Position numbers and translations under genes: made by a program. From Parvicella tangerina (GTDB taxonomy: Bacteria; Bacteroidota; Bacteroidia; Flavobacteriales_D; Parvicellaceae), in the NCBI RefSeq assembly GCF_907165195.1, contig NZ_OU015584.1:1302001-1366000 (forward strand): DNA of 64,000 bases. The letters are read 5' to 3'. Under the pieces are notes generated by a model that ran no database searches, was not told the origin of the DNA, and worked only from the letters and a program-made list of their open reading frames with translations. Numbering within the stretch: position 1 is the stretch's first letter; the number at the start of each line of letters is the position of its first letter. Positions 32,739-40,285 of this stretch are shown in pieces.

Positions 32739-32806
32739 CCATTTTAATAGCGATGAAATATCTTTTTGTGTAAACCCCTTTTTACAATAATCTCCTGTAA
32801 TGTTAC

Positions 32807-33593
32807 TGCTAACGGTCTTGTATATGAAAAGTAGCGGATTTAAAGCACTAATTTTTCAGTTTAACAATGACCTCTAATTTATTCATTTTGTTTCGTTTAA
32901 GCGACTAAACCGCTATTTTTTATATACGGTGTGTGTGCCCTGCATGAGCAGGACACACCCGTTTGAATTTTGTTTTTGATATCAATAATGCAAATTATTG
33001 ATTAGAAACGAAAGAAAAGCGGGTGTTATTTTTCTAGAGGGTTAAAGTCCCTTGTGGGTTAGGGTCGTTCCTATAACCATTAGTAAGCTGCAAGGTTGTT
33101 AGTTGTGAAGCTAGGACTGAAGGAAGCAGGACTACAAAAGTCGGTACTGACGAACAGGAACCGCATACAGAGGCATAGCCAATTTGGGTAAGCAAGCACA
33201 TCATTGTAACGCCCACAAGAAAAGGTTGGTTATGTAGATGCGGCAGTTATTGACGGGAAGAAAAAGCTCTTACCGGGGGAGGTCTCCTTAGCTACGCGTT
33301 AGCATAGAGGAGAAGTCAGCAGAGGTCATAGTACATACAAGCAACGAGTCGGTGACCTAAGGGATAAGCATCGGAGGACTCACAGCGTATGGAAGGACCG
33401 AACGATACTCTTCTAGAAATTCGCATAGGAATACAAAAGTATAGCCTATGCTTAAAGTAAAAAGGAATAGCTACAAGGGTGAAAAGAGCTTTGTATTGAT
33501 GAGTATCGAACCGCCCAGTACGAGAACCGTACGCTGGGTGGTGTGAGAGGCTCACCCCGCTAGTCTTTAGCGGGGCAGTCTACTCGATTAGGT
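32807..33593 (-). repeat. attC-like palindrome A, interrupted by a group II intron
   Basis: On the gene strand (minus) the element runs from ACCTAAC (33589-33593 joined to 32931-32932 once the intron is removed) to GTTAGCA (32807-32813). Arms CCGCTATTTTTTATATAC (32910-32927) and GTATATGAAAAGTAGCGG (32820-32837) pair imperfectly. ACCTAAC is a perfect RYYYAAC. Without the intron the element is about 131 bases. It lies eight bases beyond the stop of the PLD-HA gene and before the small membrane gene. Confidence 0.65.
32933..33588 (+). mobile_element. ORF-less group II intron
   Basis: About 656 bases, on the plus strand, antisense to the surrounding genes. It opens GTGTG (GTGYG consensus), forming GTGTGCCCTGC/GCAGGACACAC at 32933-32958. 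A domain V candidate pairs ACCGCCCAG (33510-33518) with CTGGGTGGT (33534-33542), with a 2-base bulge and GAGAACC-type apex; the GGTGGTGTGAGAGG run follows. Domain VI pairs CCCCGCTA with TAGCGGGG (33555-33575), and the 3' end is TCTACTCGAT, with an unpaired A eight bases from it. Domain IV is only the short hairpin GCATAGG/CCTATGC (33423-33451). No reverse transcriptase is encoded, so any mobility would need a maturase in trans. The exact 5' end could be 32931 or 32933. Confidence 0.85.
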
Positions 33594-33601
33594 GCTGGCA
33601 T

Positions 33602-35209
33602 TTATTCTTTTTTATATGGAAATCCTACTTTGTCAACAAGTTCAAATTTCCATTTATTCTTTTCATTATTCCAACCTTTTGTTTGTCTTCTTAATTGTGC
33701 AATTTTATTGTTGTATTTTTTTAAAACTTCTGGTTTTTCTTCCCTGAACTTTTCGTAGTTGCCTTCAGTTTTTAACTTTTCAATAAACTGCCATATTTTT
33801 ATTTTATCTTCGATTCCTTCCCTTTCCTTTTGATTTCTCCATTCCCATTCAACACCATTTTTTATTAGAAGTTTTCCTAACATTTCTACTTTTTCAGAAC
33901 TGAGTAAGTCATTTCTGCCTTCTTTATCTTGTTTTGTTTTGAATGACATTTGGTCACTTAGCCAATGTCCAATGTATGTTTTTTGTGAAGGAACGGTTTT
34001 ATAATTTAATTTGATTTTATAATATTTTTCTAGTTCTTTCAAATTATCTTTCCATTCATCATCTTTGGCTCGTCTATACATTTGACTATCATATTCCCAA
34101 ATAAAATTTATAGAATTCATCCTCTTTTCTTCGTGAGGTGTAAGTAATGGTCCATAATTTTTATTTCCTTTTCTTCTTTGCTTTTGCCACGCACACCACC
34201 TGCCAACTTCGTAATAAGGATGATACTTATTTTTGAATTGTGGTACATAAGTATAAGGAGTATCAGGACTTACCTTGTTTTTATATTCTACTACTTTATT
34301 AAAGTTTTTTTCCCATTCGATTGCTCTTTTATTCTCTCTCCCAACACCATCGAAAGGAAATTCTGCTTCAAGTAACTTTTCAAAATATTCAAAAGGTAGA
34401 GAGTTTGTATCTTGGTTGTATAAAGCGTGCATTTTTTGATACCATCTAAATAACTCTTTATCTTGTTCATTTTCAAAGTGTTTACTCACTATGCCATCAG
34501 GTCGCTTTTCTTTTTTGTATGATATATATCTTACTAATAGTTTGTCAAAATTTTCCTTATCATTTTCTGTAAACTTTTGATCATAATCATAGGTCTTTTT
34601 AGTTTCGTTATTTTCATTAACATCATCATCTTCTTCTTCCTCTTCCTCTCCATTAGAGAGTAAACCTCGTTTTTTTAAAATTTCTAAATATTCTTTTGAG
34701 AGTAATTTTATATGAGGTGAAGAAAGGTCTAAGAGACTTGAATAATAATCTTTAATTTCAGAAAGTGCAGTTAAATCATCCTTTTTAATGTCCAATTGGA
34801 TTGATGCTTCTACATTGGAATGAAGTGCTTGATAAGTAAGGTTTGTGGAACCTATGATTATTCTAGAAATATCTCTGCCTTCAAACAAGAATAATTTAGG
34901 ATGGTATATTTTTCGATAACTAGATTCATCGTAATAAATATAAGTTTCTATACTTTCATTTAATAAAAACTCAAGTGCATCTTCGCTAGTAATTTTATGG
35001 TCAATGCCAATAAAGAATTTGATTTCTTCGTAATTTGATTTCGCTATTTCAAGCTCTAACATAAAAGGTTTAAACCCTGAAAGAGTTGCGAAAGCAACAA
35101 AACCATAAAATTTCTTATAATCTTTACTTTCAAAAGATTTAGCAAGTTGTTTTCCGACATTATTTTTTTTACCTGAATCGAGTCCGTTTCCGAGGAAAGT
35201 TGTTTTCAT
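33602..35209 (-). CDS. Phospholipase-D-like nuclease with four helicase-associated (HA) domains
   Basis: The 535-residue protein has an N-terminal PLD domain: IYHPKLFLFEGRD (His103, Lys105) and GSTNLT (120-125), a single HKD-type site, so it should act as a dimer. An acidic linker (about 187-200, Glu/Asp run) follows. Four tandem repeats then resemble the helicase-associated HA domain (PF03457-like): about 219-287, 299-374, 386-457 and 471-532, each with aromatic landmarks (GRWCAWQKQRRKG, IGHWLSDQ) and a hydrophobic end (NFIW, VEWEW, VGFPYK). No helicase is present. HA domains are thought to bind DNA. A restriction-like nuclease is inferred. It is a single-gene cassette between palindromes A and B. 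Confidence 0.8.
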   Translation of the reverse strand: MKTTFLGNGLDSGKKNNVGKQLAKSFESKDYKKFYGFVAFATLSGFKPFMLELEIAKSNYEEIKFFIGIDHKITSEDALEFLLNESIETYIYYDESSYRKIYHPKLFLFEGRDISRIIIGSTNLTYQALHSNVEASIQLDIKKDDLTALSEIKDYYSSLLDLSSPHIKLLSKEYLEILKKRGLLSNGEEEEEEDDDVNENNETKKTYDYDQKFTENDKENFDKLLVRYISYKKEKRPDGIVSKHFENEQDKELFRWYQKMHALYNQDTNSLPFEYFEKLLEAEFPFDGVGRENKRAIEWEKNFNKVVEYKNKVSPDTPYTYVPQFKNKYHPYYEVGRWCAWQKQRRKGNKNYGPLLTPHEEKRMNSINFIWEYDSQMYRRAKDDEWKDNLKELEKYYKIKLNYKTVPSQKTYIGHWLSDQMSFKTKQDKEGRNDLLSSEKVEMLGKLLIKNGVEWEWRNQKEREGIEDKIKIWQFIEKLKTEGNYEKFREEKPEVLKKYNNKIAQLRRQTKGWNNEKNKWKFELVDKVGFPYKKE

Positions 35210-35233
35210 TTACTGTCGTTTGTTTTTGCTTGC

Positions 35234-35430
35234 ACCTAACGCCTCGTATAAAACACGTAGGGTAGTGGAAAGTTACGATTTTTGTTTTTAGTCCTAAGCC
35301 GGATCACTGAATTTTGCTTTTAACTTTTGGTTGATCAAAAGCCAAATCGGTGATTTGGCGTTCACGATTAGGAAGTTCAAATTATCCTTTTTAGTTACTT
35401 AACCCTATGTGATTTTATACAATGTTGTGT
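35234..35430 (-). repeat. attC-like palindrome B
   Basis: On the gene strand it runs from ACACAAC (35424-35430) to GTTAGGT (35234-35240), a perfect GTTRRRY. The outer arms CTAACGCCTCGTATAAAACA and TTTTATACAATGTTGTG pair imperfectly around an ACCCTA/TAGGGT extension. An internal perfect hairpin GCCAAATC/GATTTGGC lies at 35341-35359. It is about 197 bases, between the stop of the TOPRIM-like gene (53 bases) and the start of the PLD-HA gene (24 bases). Confidence 0.65.
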
Positions 35431-35483
35431 TTAGTTATTTATTAAACTAAATCTGCAAATACTTAATGTATATTGTTGGAGTT

Positions 35484-36170
35484 TTAGGTAGTTTTCGCTT
35501 TAATATCGTTTAGCAGGTCTACAAACTGTTTGAATGAATTAATATGCCCAGTATCTGTTACTCTATTAGTGAGTTCTTGCAGATATGTTAAGTCCTGAAC
35601 TATTGTTGGTTTTGATTTCCTATAATTTAAGTTTTTTTCCCTCAAAACTTCTTTGAAATAAGAATAGTGAAATTGAGCTTTTGTTCTAAAACTATCGTTA
35701 AATATTTCTAAAAGTTCAGGATCTTCTAACCGAACATTGTAAAAAGATAGGTAGTCTTTAAGTAACTGCTTTTGAGGGTTTCTTTTAATAATTCTTCTAT
35801 TACCTAGGAACCATGTTTCTATGCAAACTTCTTGAACAACTATATGTAGTGTACAATCAATATTAAGTACCACTTCAGATTCTTCTATGTGAGCTAACAA
35901 TTCCTGAACTCTTTCCTCTACCCCAATTTCTTCTCCATCCAAGCAGACTATTAGCTTATTATATAGACGATGTTCGTTAATGTTTTTGATAGCATTTACA
36001 GTATGATTATAAATCGAAGGAATACCGCCTCCAGAGAACATGTAATAATTATGTTCGGTTGCATCGGTCTCAAAATAAACTTGACTAAAATGGGGTAAAA
36101 TAAATTCTAACCACTTAGGAAATACTTTGGGTTCTGTTTGGTCCCCTTCTAGAACAAAATAGAGATTCAT
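35484..36170 (-). CDS. TOPRIM/RloB-like protein paired with an ATPase
   Basis: The 228-residue protein begins MNLYFVLEGDQTEPKVFPKW. The EGxxTEP phrase (Glu8) is the mark of RloB/DUF4276-like TOPRIM proteins. A second acidic site is IVCLDGEE (Asp78, Glu81), and CIETWFLG (Glu117) matches the conserved ETW motif of those families. Metal-dependent nuclease activity is inferred. It starts one base after the stop of the ATPase gene. ATPase plus TOPRIM pairs occur in known anti-phage systems such as PARIS and the RloA/RloB pair; this one is not identical to any I can name. Confidence 0.7.
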   Translation of the reverse strand: MNLYFVLEGDQTEPKVFPKWLEFILPHFSQVYFETDATEHNYYMFSGGGIPSIYNHTVNAIKNINEHRLYNKLIVCLDGEEIGVEERVQELLAHIEESEVVLNIDCTLHIVVQEVCIETWFLGNRRIIKRNPQKQLLKDYLSFYNVRLEDPELLEIFNDSFRTKAQFHYSYFKEVLREKNLNYRKSKPTIVQDLTYLQELTNRVTDTGHINSFKQFVDLLNDIKAKTT

Positions 36171-36171
36171 A

Positions 36172-37311
36172 TTATGAAATACCTTCTTTATAAAAAGGGA
36201 GGTTAATAAGACTCATAAACTGATCGTGATGAGACATTCCTTTGTTAAATTGACTGGCGTCCACAGTTTTAATTTTGCTACCTTTTCTAGTGACAATTTT
36301 CCAGTAATCATAAGGGATTTTATTTATGATATATGGATGGTGGCTGGTTGCAATGAATTGCACATTCTTATTTTCATAAATTAGATCTTCTGTCAAGACG
36401 TCAATACAATTCACTCCAAGACTGTTTTCAAATTCATCGATTAAAATTACTGTTCCAGGGTTCCATAAATACATCTCTGCTATGTGAAGTAATGTCCGCA
36501 GCATTCCAGATGACATTCTATTGTGCGGAATCCATTTTTTAACACCTTTTTCCTTGATTTGAATTACTGTTGCTTCAAAAACAAAATTTGTGAATTCATC
36601 GTCTTTTATTGGTTCAATCTTTATGTTTTCGATTTGAGGAAAAACATCAATAAATCTTGCCTTAATATCTTCAAAAACATCTTTCGAAATATCATGAACC
36701 AAAGCAAGTTTATGAAAAGTATCTAAATCACTTTCTACAATTTGTTCAAAAGTGCCATATTTCTTTTTCAGTTTTTCTATACTTAAACTACTATATCTTA
36801 CTCCCTCTTTTTGTGTGTGATCCCTTAATACAATTGACTTAAAGCTATTGAAAGCATCTTTAATAAGATCTTCTTCTTTCAATATGTTCATAGCACTTTC
36901 TATAGAGGATAGCTTGGGCATTTCTTTATCATTGAAATTAAAACTACCTTCCTTTCTATCAATTATAACTTGGTTGCCATTCAGAATTATCCTTTCACTC
37001 AATATTTTTGGTTTCACTTTTTCAGACTCTGAATCAGCAAAATCTGGAATAAATTCACTTTTAGAAACAATATTCTCAAATTCCCCCTCCCATAAATATG
37101 ATTGGTTGTTGTTTGTTTCAAACTCCACTTGCCACTTTACTCCATTTTGACTTGCTCCATTCGCAATTCTCTTTAGGTTGTAAATTGCTCGGAGAATTTG
37201 AGTTTTACCAACTCCAGATACACCTACCAATAATGTGACATCAAAGAAGTTTATTTTTTCAAATTCCCACTCCTCTTCATTATTGCTGTATTTGATAGAT
37301 TTTAATTTCAT
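36172..37311 (-). CDS. ABC/OLD-like AAA ATPase (AAA_15/21 type)
   Basis: The 379-residue protein has Walker A GVSGVGKT at residues 30-37, the signature-like RMSSGMLRTLLHIAE at 265-279, Walker B VILIDEFENSLG (288-299) and a switch histidine ATSHHPYI (321-328). There is no nuclease domain, unlike full OLD proteins. The nucleotide-binding halves lie in one chain with a coiled-coil-like middle (about 140-230). It is the first gene of a two-gene cassette. It should drive or gate the TOPRIM-like partner encoded one base downstream (inference). Confidence 0.85.
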   Translation of the reverse strand: MKLKSIKYSNNEEEWEFEKINFFDVTLLVGVSGVGKTQILRAIYNLKRIANGASQNGVKWQVEFETNNNQSYLWEGEFENIVSKSEFIPDFADSESEKVKPKILSERIILNGNQVIIDRKEGSFNFNDKEMPKLSSIESAMNILKEEDLIKDAFNSFKSIVLRDHTQKEGVRYSSLSIEKLKKKYGTFEQIVESDLDTFHKLALVHDISKDVFEDIKARFIDVFPQIENIKIEPIKDDEFTNFVFEATVIQIKEKGVKKWIPHNRMSSGMLRTLLHIAEMYLWNPGTVILIDEFENSLGVNCIDVLTEDLIYENKNVQFIATSHHPYIINKIPYDYWKIVTRKGSKIKTVDASQFNKGMSHHDQFMSLINLPFYKEGIS

Positions 37312-37480
37312 TAAATAATGATTTTAAAGACGAAGATAAACAATGCAATCAACTAATGAAACTTTGATTAACGAAGAGTGAATTGTATCTTGGTAATTAA
37401 ACACAACGTTTCGGCTCGTATGTTTACAATCAGAACCAAATTAGACATTAAAAGTATACTAATAAACAAACAAAACCAAA

Positions 37481-37553
37481 ATAGAAGGGATAGGGAGCTT
37501 CGGCTAGATACATAGAGATATGATATCGCTTCATAGATTGACCACCCTTCTAT
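37481..37553 (+). ncRNA. Candidate IS110 bridge RNA core
   Basis: In the left end of the IS, ATAGAAGGG (37481-37489) and CCCTTCTAT (37545-37553) form a perfect 9-bp closing stem. It encloses AGC-TTCG-GCT (37496-37505) and a GATATGATATC inverted repeat. The internal TTCGGCT also occurs in the left flank of the insertion (TTTCGGCTCG), and TTCAT (about 37530) is the complement of the right flank ATGAA. These are the two kinds of match expected of target guides, but they are short. The full RNA probably extends beyond this core. Confidence 0.45.
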
Positions 37554-37657
37554 ATTTTTCTTAGAGCCTGAACAGTACCTAGGTCCAAAAACAAAGAGAT
37601 CGAATCAAAAGCGAGCAAAGGTTACAAAGGAAAATATTGGTAAAAAAAGAAATATTC

Positions 37658-38731
37658 ATGGAATTAAAAGTATTAAAACAAGCATTGGGACTAGATGTAT
37701 CGAAAGATACGTTGTCGATTTGTTTAGGTTTTTTGAGAAGTGATTTAACCAAGGAGTTTGTATCACGAAAAGATGTTGCCAATAACAAGGAGGGCTTCTC
37801 AGAGCTAGTAAAATGGTTAAAGCGAACAATGAAACAAGACCAGTTAATTGTAGTAATGGAGGCCACAGGAGTTTATCATGAAGGCGTTTCGCATTACCTA
37901 CACGATTTGGGTTATAATGTATGTATCATGCAATCAGGTCGTGTAAAGAAATATGCACAGAGTTTAAATCAACGTTCCAAAACAGATGCTCTAGATAGCA
38001 AGATGCTTTCGATGTTAGGATGTGAACGTGAGTTACAGATCTGGTCCCCTCCCAGTGAGACGCTTCAGGAGCTAAAGAGTTTGAGTAGAGAAAGGTCGAT
38101 GTTAGTAAAAGAACGGAGTGTAGAAAAGAATCGACTTGAAGCACTGAAGGTAGGCGTTCATACGGAGTCAAGAACGATAAAACGCTTTGAAAAAAGGTTG
38201 AAGTTGATCAACACTCAGATAGCAGAAATAGAAGAGGAAATGGGCAGATGTGTTCAAAAAGATGCAGAGTTAAGCAGAAAGATCAATTACCTAGAGAGTA
38301 TACCAGGAGTATCATTTATATCAGCAACTACGGTCGTAGCAGAGACAGGTGGATTTGCATTGATCAATAATAGGAAACAACTAACGAGTTATGCTGGTTA
38401 TGACGTGGTTTTACGAGATTCAGGGAGTTTTCACGGTAAAACAAAAATCAGCAAAAAGGGGAATAAACACATTCGAGCTGTGTTGCACATGCCTTCCATG
38501 ACAGCAGTACGATTAAATCCAACCTTAAAGCCTTTTTATCAACGTTTAAAACCCAAAAAAGAAAAGCCAATAGTCGCATTAGTAGCGGTGCAACGCAAAA
38601 TGCTATTGCTAATGTATACGCTGTGGAAAAACGAACAATATTATGATCCCGAATTTGAGCAAAAAAAAGCAGCAAAGAATCAAGTCTTTGCTGCGCAGGA
38701 TAGAAACAAACCGAAATTTGTAACTTCCTAA
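37658..38731 (+). CDS. IS110-family recombinase (DEDD transposase)
   Basis: The protein has about 357 residues from ATG 37658 (MELKVLKQALGLDVSKD). The DEDD RuvC-like domain has Asp in GLDVSKD, Glu in VVMEATGVYH, and the pair in KTDALDSKML. A coiled-coil linker follows (about 120-200). The C-terminal transposase_20 domain has YLESIPGVSFISATTVVAETG and KTKISKKGNKHIRAVLH with the catalytic serine. The frame is intact, so the element may be active. IS110 enzymes use an RNA guide from the element's end (known). Confidence 0.93.
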   Translation: MELKVLKQALGLDVSKDTLSICLGFLRSDLTKEFVSRKDVANNKEGFSELVKWLKRTMKQDQLIVVMEATGVYHEGVSHYLHDLGYNVCIMQSGRVKKYAQSLNQRSKTDALDSKMLSMLGCERELQIWSPPSETLQELKSLSRERSMLVKERSVEKNRLEALKVGVHTESRTIKRFEKRLKLINTQIAEIEEEMGRCVQKDAELSRKINYLESIPGVSFISATTVVAETGGFALINNRKQLTSYAGYDVVLRDSGSFHGKTKISKKGNKHIRAVLHMPSMTAVRLNPTLKPFYQRLKPKKEKPIVALVAVQRKMLLLMYTLWKNEQYYDPEFEQKKAAKNQVFAAQDRNKPKFVTS

Positions 38732-38940
38732 TATTTTTTATCAAAAATAGTTGTTTTTTGACACAGTACCTATGAAAAGTGCGGAATTGAGAAGCGATAG
38801 TTCTCAATTGAGCACGAGTGTAAGCCAAAGCTACGGTTTGTGTTTAGTTTATTCTTACAAAACGTCAAAGCGGAGCTTTGGCGCTTGATAGTAGTAAAGT
38901 TAATATTTAGTTCAACTGCCCGCATTTTTTATAGCTCTTG

Positions 38941-39804
38941 TTAGCCACAGTTATTTTTATATTCAAAAGTGGTGGTTTGCCTAAGATAGTCTCTTTGATA
39001 TATTTCCGTTTTTATGTGAAGTCCGTTTTTGTAGAAATATTTTGTAGTTACAATACCTTGTTTGTGAGTTACAAGCAGCCCTTCGTGATTAAATAAATAG
39101 GTTCTCCAAACCGCACCATCATTGTTCAACCATTCTACTCTAATAGTTGAAGAATCAGTAATACAAAATACAGTTTCTTCCTTACCTCTATGGTAATAAG
39201 ACAATATAGAATCAGATGCAAAGCATATAGAATCATTAATTTTTAATAAAAATTTTGGAATACTTAGTTGATGTCCTAATATTATAGTGTCAATAAGTAG
39301 ATTAGAGTCTTCACCACTTATTATGCTTATGCCATACTTATTTGGTTGCAAATCATCTACTTGAATAAGATTAGACATTGTTTCCATTTGCTCTTCAGTA
39401 TTACTTCTGAATTGATCATATTCAAAAATCGAAGATTGAGAACATTGCATATAAGACGGAATACCATCTTCATAAGACACGATTGAATCTTTTACTAAGC
39501 TTATTGCCATAAAACGGTCAGTATACCAACGTCTTTTGAACTTTTTTTTAATCATTGGGGTTTTCCAATAAGTCCGTTTTTCTATGATACCATTTTGGTC
39601 AATCTCATATTTAAATACAAAATTCGAGATTGCTCTGCTAGAAATACCCTGATAGTCAGAGAATGCTTGAACTTCACAAACACCACTTTCACTCAAGGTC
39701 TTTGCGTTGACAAATACATCTTCTTCATCATAGAATCCCTGACTAAATGTAGAGATACATACAAGTTGAATAACTAGGAAGTATATTAAGGTATGCTGTT
39801 GCAT
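38941..39804 (-). CDS. Secreted cassette protein of unknown function
   Basis: The 287-residue protein has a signal peptide (MQQHTLIYFLVIQLVCISTFSQ). The body is Tyr- and Ile-rich with no recognised catalytic motif. The C-terminal part (YLFNHEGLLVTHKQGIVTTKYFYKNGLHIKTEIY) recalls RHS/YwqK-like YD-type strand repeats. It starts 12 bases from the GTTAGCC box of palindrome D, and its stop codon is inside the GGCTAAC box of palindrome C. That is the tight packing expected of an integron-type cassette. Confidence 0.65.
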   Translation of the reverse strand: MQQHTLIYFLVIQLVCISTFSQGFYDEEDVFVNAKTLSESGVCEVQAFSDYQGISSRAISNFVFKYEIDQNGIIEKRTYWKTPMIKKKFKRRWYTDRFMAISLVKDSIVSYEDGIPSYMQCSQSSIFEYDQFRSNTEEQMETMSNLIQVDDLQPNKYGISIISGEDSNLLIDTIILGHQLSIPKFLLKINDSICFASDSILSYYHRGKEETVFCITDSSTIRVEWLNNDGAVWRTYLFNHEGLLVTHKQGIVTTKYFYKNGLHIKTEIYQRDYLRQTTTFEYKNNCG

Positions 39805-39816
39805 TTTTCTAATTGT

Positions 39817-39890
39817 GGCTAACGATCAGTCTAAAAAACGTAGCAACGGTAAGGTAGGTTTGGGCTATGTTTTTTGAGACATTGTTGTCA
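39817..39890 (-). repeat. attC-like palindrome D
   Basis: On the gene strand it runs from TGACAAC (39884-39890) to GTTAGCC (39817-39823). Its arms CAGTCTAAAAAACGTAGC (39827-39844) and GCTATGTTTTTTGAGACA (39864-39881) pair well. At about 74 bases it is the shortest of the four. It lies upstream of the 38941-39804 gene and marks the outer end of the array. Confidence 0.6.
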
Positions 39891-40285
39891 GTAGTATTTT
39901 TTTATTCTGCTAAAGATATAAAACTTGCAGCATAAAAAACTGCGGAGTAGAACTCAAAAGCTTCAGGTACATTTCGTAGGGATGTCAAGAGTTCCTATGA
40001 CCTTTTAGGGTTGCTAAGAGTCGTAGAAAAGAACGCCTGCCAACTTAATTATTTTTCGATTAATTTAATTGAATCTAAGTCAATCGCTTGACTTTGTGGT
40101 TTTTAACCCCTAACTTTGCAAAGTCTTAGAAGATGCTCTGCGACTTCCGAAAACAGTCTCCGACATGATTTTCAAGATCTTCGAGATCTAGACTTTGAAA
40201 AATTAATTCAATCAACTTACTCGAAAAATCTGGCAGGTTGACATCCCCCAGAAATCTGAAATTTTTGTTCTATTACTGACAACAA
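39882..40285. repeat. 404-base gene-free segment bounded by 12-bp inverted repeats
   Basis: TTGTTGTCAGTA (39882-39893) is repeated in inverted orientation as TACTGACAACAA (40274-40285). The pair overlaps the edge of palindrome D. No target duplication is visible. A non-autonomous element or an inversion junction is possible. A further hairpin GGAATAAC/GTTATTCC lies at 40287-40311, and CCGT...ACGG (40368-40392) beyond it. Confidence 0.45.
40036..40237. repeat. Nested long inverted repeat, possible structured RNA
   Basis: CCTGCCA (40036-40042)/TGGCAGG (40231-40237), ATTTTTCGA (40051-40059)/TCGAAAAAT (40221-40229), CAAAGTCTTAGA (40119-40130)/TCTAGACTTTG (40187-40197, one bulge), and AGATCT/AGATCT around TCG at about 40175-40189. 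All nest into a single 202-base imperfect hairpin. No protein-coding frame crosses it. Confidence 0.5.

Follow-up and report, generated by a model that had tools for sequence, protein, structure and literature searches.

The window analysed here, a 64,000-nucleotide stretch of the Parvicella tangerina genome, carries an ATPase gene and a TOPRIM-like partner gene. Judged by their sequences, the two do not make up a new class; they belong to the known two-gene AAA-TOPRIM class, as a separate branch for which no model exists as yet. We consider it probable (roughly 0.7) that the pair is an AAA-TOPRIM defence module, with the ATPase as sensor and the TOPRIM protein as effector, which is triggered by phage and travels as a single cassette. 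The pair was placed in the class on the grounds of architecture, catalytic residues, and homology, the architecture being that of an ABC/OLD-type ATPase gene directly before a separate TOPRIM-like gene.

The preliminary description of this DNA had proposed a two-gene ATPase/TOPRIM-like module. An ORF check found both genes on the minus strand at the coordinates given there (Table 1), with the single base 36171 between them, and all the motifs that had been read were recovered at their residues: GVSGVGKT (30-37), VILIDE (288-293), and H324 in the ATPase, and EGDQTEP (8-14), IVCLDGEE (74-81), and CIETWFLG (116-123) in the partner. Together with a gene order conserved in about 20 loci, these results bear out the module.

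Table 1. Features of the cassette and its surroundings (window coordinates).
Feature	Position	Strand	Remarks
ORF-less group II intron, 658 nt	32931-33588	+	Rfam RF02001 (112 bits), RF01998
Next cassette, PLD-like + helicase-associated (HA) domain protein	33602-35209	-	535 aa; PF13091 4.6e-7, PF03457 2.3e-11
attC closing the pair's cassette	35234-35430	-	R'' ACACAAC 35430-35424, R' GTTAGGT 35240-35234; palindromic
TOPRIM-like partner gene	35484-36170	-	228 aa; RloB-like; proposed nuclease effector/toxin
ATPase gene	36172-37311	-	379 aa; AAA_21/OLD-AbiLi-AriA type; proposed sensor/antitoxin
Candidate Bacteroidota-type promoter (TTTC-N19-TATCTTCG)	37331-37361	-	in cassette, upstream of ATPase gene; weak
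R' box GTTGTGT of preceding attC = cassette 5' end	37401-37407	-	perfect complement of R'' ACACAAC
IS110-family transposase	37637-38731	+	NF033542 209.9 bits, above cut-off
Preceding cassette ORF	38941-39804	-	287 aa, no family; R'' GGCTAAC at 38947-38941

In the ATPase, the Walker A motif is followed by an ABC signature (SSGM, 267-270), a Walker B motif (LIDEFEN, 290-296), and the switch histidine, and K36, S267-S268-G269, D292-E293, E295-N296, and the HHP around H324 were invariant in 19 of 19 ATPases. Pfam matches were to PF13304 (AAA_21, E 1.2e-18) and PF13175 (E 1.4e-8). The PADLOC models for AriA (3.8e-20), AbiLi (2.8e-18), and HEC-01A (8.7e-15) were also matched, with scores far below those of true members (e.g. 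1.4e-92 for AbiLi and 2.6e-138 for HEC-01A). Profile comparisons gave 98% with HEC-01A-type ATPases (E 1e-14) and 97% with both the RloA and the AriA types, and the predicted model (pLDDT 79) matched PtuA, AriA, Rad50, and SMC heads in the PDB with Z 15-18. By these comparisons the protein is a generic relative of the AbiLi, HEC-01A, and AriA ATPases.

The motifs of the partner are E8-G9..E13, D78-x-E80, Q113, and C116-x-E118-T-W120. The TOPRIM catalytic acids (an N-terminal Glu and DxD/E) are conserved in it: E8, G9, E13, D78, Q113, C116, E118, and W120, among others, were invariant in all 20 partners and position 80 was always E or D, and E8 with D78-x-E/D80 is the acid pattern of TOPRIM nucleases. 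For the window protein, NCBIfam gave no match, Pfam one spurious sub-cut-off match and neither RloB nor PF14491, and PADLOC a best match to HEC-01B at E 0.004 and none to AbiLii. Within the family, PF13707 (RloB) was matched by 10 of 20 members (best 2.4e-5), PADLOC AbiLii by 10 of 20 (best 1.3e-7), and DUF4276, weakly, by 8 of 20 (best 4.8e-7). Profile-profile comparison of the partner with RloB using hhalign reached 96.2% (E 2.1e-9), over 124 columns only, and brought together EG..TE, the D, and the C/F-x-E-x-W motif; an unrelated ATPase profile, run as a control, gave 0.2%. The same program gave only 5% for DUF4276 and 1.6% for DUF4435/AriB (against a three-sequence profile), and both assignments were rejected. 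The profile-profile match with RloB upholds the initial naming of the second protein as RloB-like, and the partner is a remote relative of RloB/AbiLii.

The AlphaFold model of the partner (mean pLDDT 76, with low confidence after residue 120, in the C-terminal half) has its predicted strands and helices arranged in a TOPRIM-like order. When solved structures were searched by sequence, nothing was returned for it, and Foldseek gave no significant match. A second fold comparison listed PH0156 (Z 8.4) and the OLD TOPRIM structure 6nk8 (Z 7.4), both within the range of common arrangements; the 6nk8 match, to the C-terminal region of the Burkholderia OLD protein, was weak and the best informative one. 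An OLD/Gabija-like direct action was weighed here, in which the ATPase would recognise DNA structures and the TOPRIM protein would nick phage or plasmid DNA while the cell survives. The same two domain types are joined in OLD and GajA, and the Rad50 and SMC heads among the ATPase fold matches point the same way; we nevertheless judge this mode of action distinctly unlikely, since sequence homology links the partner with RloB/AbiLii rather than with OLD TOPRIM domains, and since the partner is encoded as a protein of its own, like that of PARIS, where tRNA is the target.

In trees whose reference sets were sampled from Bacteroidota genomes only, the new ATPases formed one clade beside the RloA, HEC-01A, and AriA ATPases (support 100/99) and the partners one clade beside RloB and DUF4276 proteins (98/98). 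Both proteins form clades of their own next to RloAB/AbiL, HEC-01, and PARIS; long branches meet at this point, so separateness alone is claimed.

Both genes were found in the same order at about 20 further loci in Bacteroidota, Cyanobacteriota, and Proteobacteria, several of them plasmid-borne. The ATPase gene lay directly 5' of the partner gene in every true homologous locus, and in most of them the two genes overlapped or were only a few bases apart. Searching with the partner protein revealed relatives on plasmids of Bernardetia, Nostoc, Planktothrix, Methylovorus, and Acinetobacter; others lay in contigs of Flavobacterium, Tannerella, Emticicia, Bacteroidales, Dolichospermum, and Tychonema, and in four other Bacteroidota genomes among 395 sampled. 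One weak partner match (L014, genome G005) proved by its own sequence to be a translational GTPase and was dropped. The pair was also present on one short, unverified scaffold of a phage collection; a single-sequence query of the IMG/VR viral contigs returned no relatives. The closest ATPases were those of Flavobacterium bernardetii (74% identity) and a Tannerella MAG (72%), and their partners were 55-57% identical to that of the window. Nearer to P. tangerina, the pair was found neither in three congeneric genomes nor in 21 others of the family; among 15 genomes of the order a single one was positive, with an ATPase relative at 47%. Pairwise identities of ATPases and partners correlated between loci (Spearman 0.81, 18 loci, the distance pairs not being independent).

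The pair is distributed in the manner of a horizontally moving accessory module. The mobility suggested beforehand is borne out by its patchiness, by the plasmid-borne relatives, and by the integron cassette described below. The same features, together with the absence from congeners, render a housekeeping or repair role unrelated to defence highly improbable, even though ABC/SMC-type heads such as those of the ATPase are common to repair proteins. Around the pair, most neighbour genes tested across the loci had no PADLOC match. On a Planktothrix plasmid the pair adjoins a GmrSD-like DUF262 protein and a XamI restriction-modification system, and at another locus (L011) a PADLOC candidate lies among its neighbours. 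On the Methylovorus plasmid pMsip02, a distant pair adjoins an integrase; this plasmid encodes a Zot-domain protein and looks like a filamentous-phage element.

The pair occupies a cassette of about 2.17 kb that holds both genes and is flanked by recurrent attC sites with R'' and R' boxes, as is typical of an integron cassette. Across the 3.98-Mb genome, the attC family recurs at some 24 sites. Thirteen copies are near full length and 80-90% identical; they can be aligned from one end to the other, and their conservation ceases exactly at the seven-base boxes. These boxes read xxxxAAC and GTTxxxx, mostly RYYYAAC and GTTRRRY, and boxes of this type belong to the anatomy of integron attC sites. 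Within an array, the R'' of a cassette's attC is expected to complement the R' that precedes that cassette. Full complementarity was observed in all six readable adjacent pairs and in 10 of 250 non-adjacent combinations, with two provisos: for some window boxes the expected complement guided the search, and one of the six pairs was read through a group II intron. The term 'one cassette', used in the preliminary description, thus holds in the strict integron sense, from the attC family and from R''/R' complementarity. A home-made stem scan for attC reached its score of 12 in shuffled sequences as well and was replaced by these two lines of evidence. The candidate promoter was found with a loosened consensus that 48 of 2000 shuffles also matched.

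Two attC sites of the array have been invaded by other elements. IS110 elements and group IIC introns prefer attC sites, and here the IS110 element interrupts the attC that precedes the pair, leaving attC halves on both sides of it, and the group II intron sits in the R'' box of the attC of the PLD-HA cassette, where the joined flanks restore ACCTAAC. For group IIC introns, this preference is described in PMC7923331. The PLD-HA cassette likewise has complementary R''/R' boxes; its protein is weakly like ZacB/DrmC and is possibly another defence effector.

Cassette arrays built on this one attC family were seen in the window (32795-40280) and near 0.07, 0.17, 1.52, 1.56, 1.72, 1.87, 2.58, and 3.94 Mb of the same contig, with ORFs for LRR, YitT-family, and cNMP-binding proteins and many without a family. 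A canonical IntI was not found in the genome: no protein exceeded the TIGR02249 cut-off, and the best matches to this model skip its positions ~180-240. A complete integron, which takes an integrase with the IntI-specific patch and an attI site, was not assigned, and the arrays are CALIN-like in IntegronFinder terms. Complete integrons are reported to be very rare in Bacteroidetes (PMC9024848). The protein nearest to IntI is a 381-aa XerA-like tyrosine recombinase (3916162-3917524, ~20 kb from an attC cluster) that scored 219.2 bits with NF040815 (cut-off 220) and 206.8 with TIGR02249 (cut-off 265). This XerA/IntI-like recombinase is a possible integrase of the arrays.

Sensor-effector or toxin-antitoxin action has been published for the AAA-TOPRIM class (PMC12409363, PMC10440598). 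In PARIS, the AriA ATPase sequesters the TOPRIM tRNase AriB, which needs the TOPRIM glutamate E26, and frees it on sensing a phage protein such as Ocr (PMC12409363). AbiL is a pair that works by abortive infection, and among the pairs with toxicity-neutralisation assays in E. coli there is one made up of an RloB-type TOPRIM (D44) and its AAA partner (PMC10440598). Because of its homology and the layout it shares with PARIS and AbiL, the pair is most likely an abortive-infection sensor and effector. We propose that the ATPase assembles via its ABC-type heads and would bind the TOPRIM protein and keep it inactive, until a phage-made signal alters the ATPase and the TOPRIM protein is freed or switched on. 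With two metals on E8, D78, and E80, the latter would cut nucleic acid, most likely host RNA such as tRNA and less likely DNA; cleavage would stop phage growth at a cost to the infected cell, and the whole module would move as one integron gene cassette. Defence genes in some neighbourhoods (the DUF262 GmrSD-like protein, the XamI system, and the L011 PADLOC candidate) were counted in favour of defence. On the other side, one published screen found no protection by an AAA-neutralised toxin-antitoxin pair (A. guerrae; PMC10440598).

A toxin-antitoxin addiction module, in which the ATPase would be the antitoxin and the TOPRIM protein the toxin, acting without a phage trigger and mainly stabilising the array or plasmid, has to be set against this proposal. 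The pair lies in a cassette array and has relatives on small plasmids, and stabilising toxin-antitoxin cassettes are usual in chromosomal integrons, a point we counted for addiction. The ATPase, however, is large and has a full ABC catalytic set, needless in a simple antitoxin, and the closest characterised relatives are abortive-infection systems. AAA proteins do neutralise TOPRIM toxins in E. coli (PMC10440598). On balance, pure addiction seems unlikely to us; the two roles can coexist. Going beyond the preferred reading of a phage-triggered defence module, one may speculate, with considerable doubt, that the pair represents a defence family of its own, with a trigger and a nucleic-acid target unlike those of AbiL, HEC-01, and PARIS, and that it is moved about as a self-contained two-gene cassette by a Bacteroidota integron-like system whose recombinase is XerA-like and lacks the IntI patch.

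Seen against the known systems, the claim of a 'new defence operon' stands in part: the pair has its own clade, but the AAA-TOPRIM class of AbiL/RloAB, HEC-01, and PARIS, in which it falls, is already known, so it is no new class. Two other statements in the same description proved sound, namely that the pair, as an ABC-type ATPase with a separate TOPRIM-like gene, has the layout of PARIS and RloA/RloB, and that it is not obviously one of the named families, the partner having no convincing call in PADLOC, Pfam, or NCBIfam. What is added is a well-bounded, phylum-spanning branch uncalled by PADLOC 2023, Pfam, and NCBIfam, for which a short list of residues is now available for testing.

AbiL and RloA-RloB share with the pair the gene order, ATPase then TOPRIM-like, a partner homologous over the TOPRIM core (EG..TE, DxD, xxExW), and a related ATPase (the 97% profile match). 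In contrast to AbiL/RloB, the partner has no N-terminal basic extension, the ATPase is ~60 residues shorter, and the clades are separate in both trees; on RloB/AbiLii models the new family reaches 1e-5 to 1e-7 at best, against 1e-22 to 1e-31 for true RloB proteins. Assignment of the partner to RloB/AbiLii by family models was rejected, as the window protein has no match and its clade is its own, and so was membership of the ATPase in the RloA/AbiLi clade, on its AbiLi score and its own clade. HEC-01 (the HEC-01A ATPase with HEC-01B, DUF4276; a PADLOC candidate) resembles the pair in layout, ATPase size, and ATPase profile (98%), but the partners have no significant profile relation (5%) and the clades are separate; true HEC-01B/DUF4276 members score 1e-74 to 1e-76 where the window partner scores 0.004, and this identity was rejected.

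PARIS (AriA with AriB, DUF4435) likewise joins an ABC-type ATPase to a separate TOPRIM protein, and AriA is matched by the ATPase in PADLOC and in structure (Z 15-17). It differs in that the partner is unrelated to the DUF4435 profile (1.6%) and the ATPase is shorter than AriA and in a separate clade; with no PF14491 match in the partner, membership by AriB was rejected. Elsewhere in this genome (2015355-2015972) lies a 632-aa ATPase that carries a fused DUF4435 (AriB-like) domain and may be a PARIS-type fusion. The best structural matches of the ATPase were to PtuA of Septu and of retrons Ec78 and Ec83 (Z 17-18), but in those systems the companion is PtuB, an HNH nuclease, or a retron, and none is present here: at every locus the gene next to the ATPase encodes the TOPRIM-like protein, the five ORFs scanned contained no HNH or RT family, and Septu/retron membership was rejected.

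The carriage of a defence-type module as an integron cassette recalls the sedentary chromosomal integrons of Vibrio, where integrons have been described as stores of anti-phage systems (PMC12409362, 2025); the present case differs in lying on a Bacteroidota chromosome, in a genome in which no canonical IntI was found. It offers an example of a two-gene AAA-TOPRIM module inside a single integron cassette from Bacteroidota, a group with hardly any record of integrons, and extends the idea of cassette arrays as anti-phage stores beyond Vibrio.
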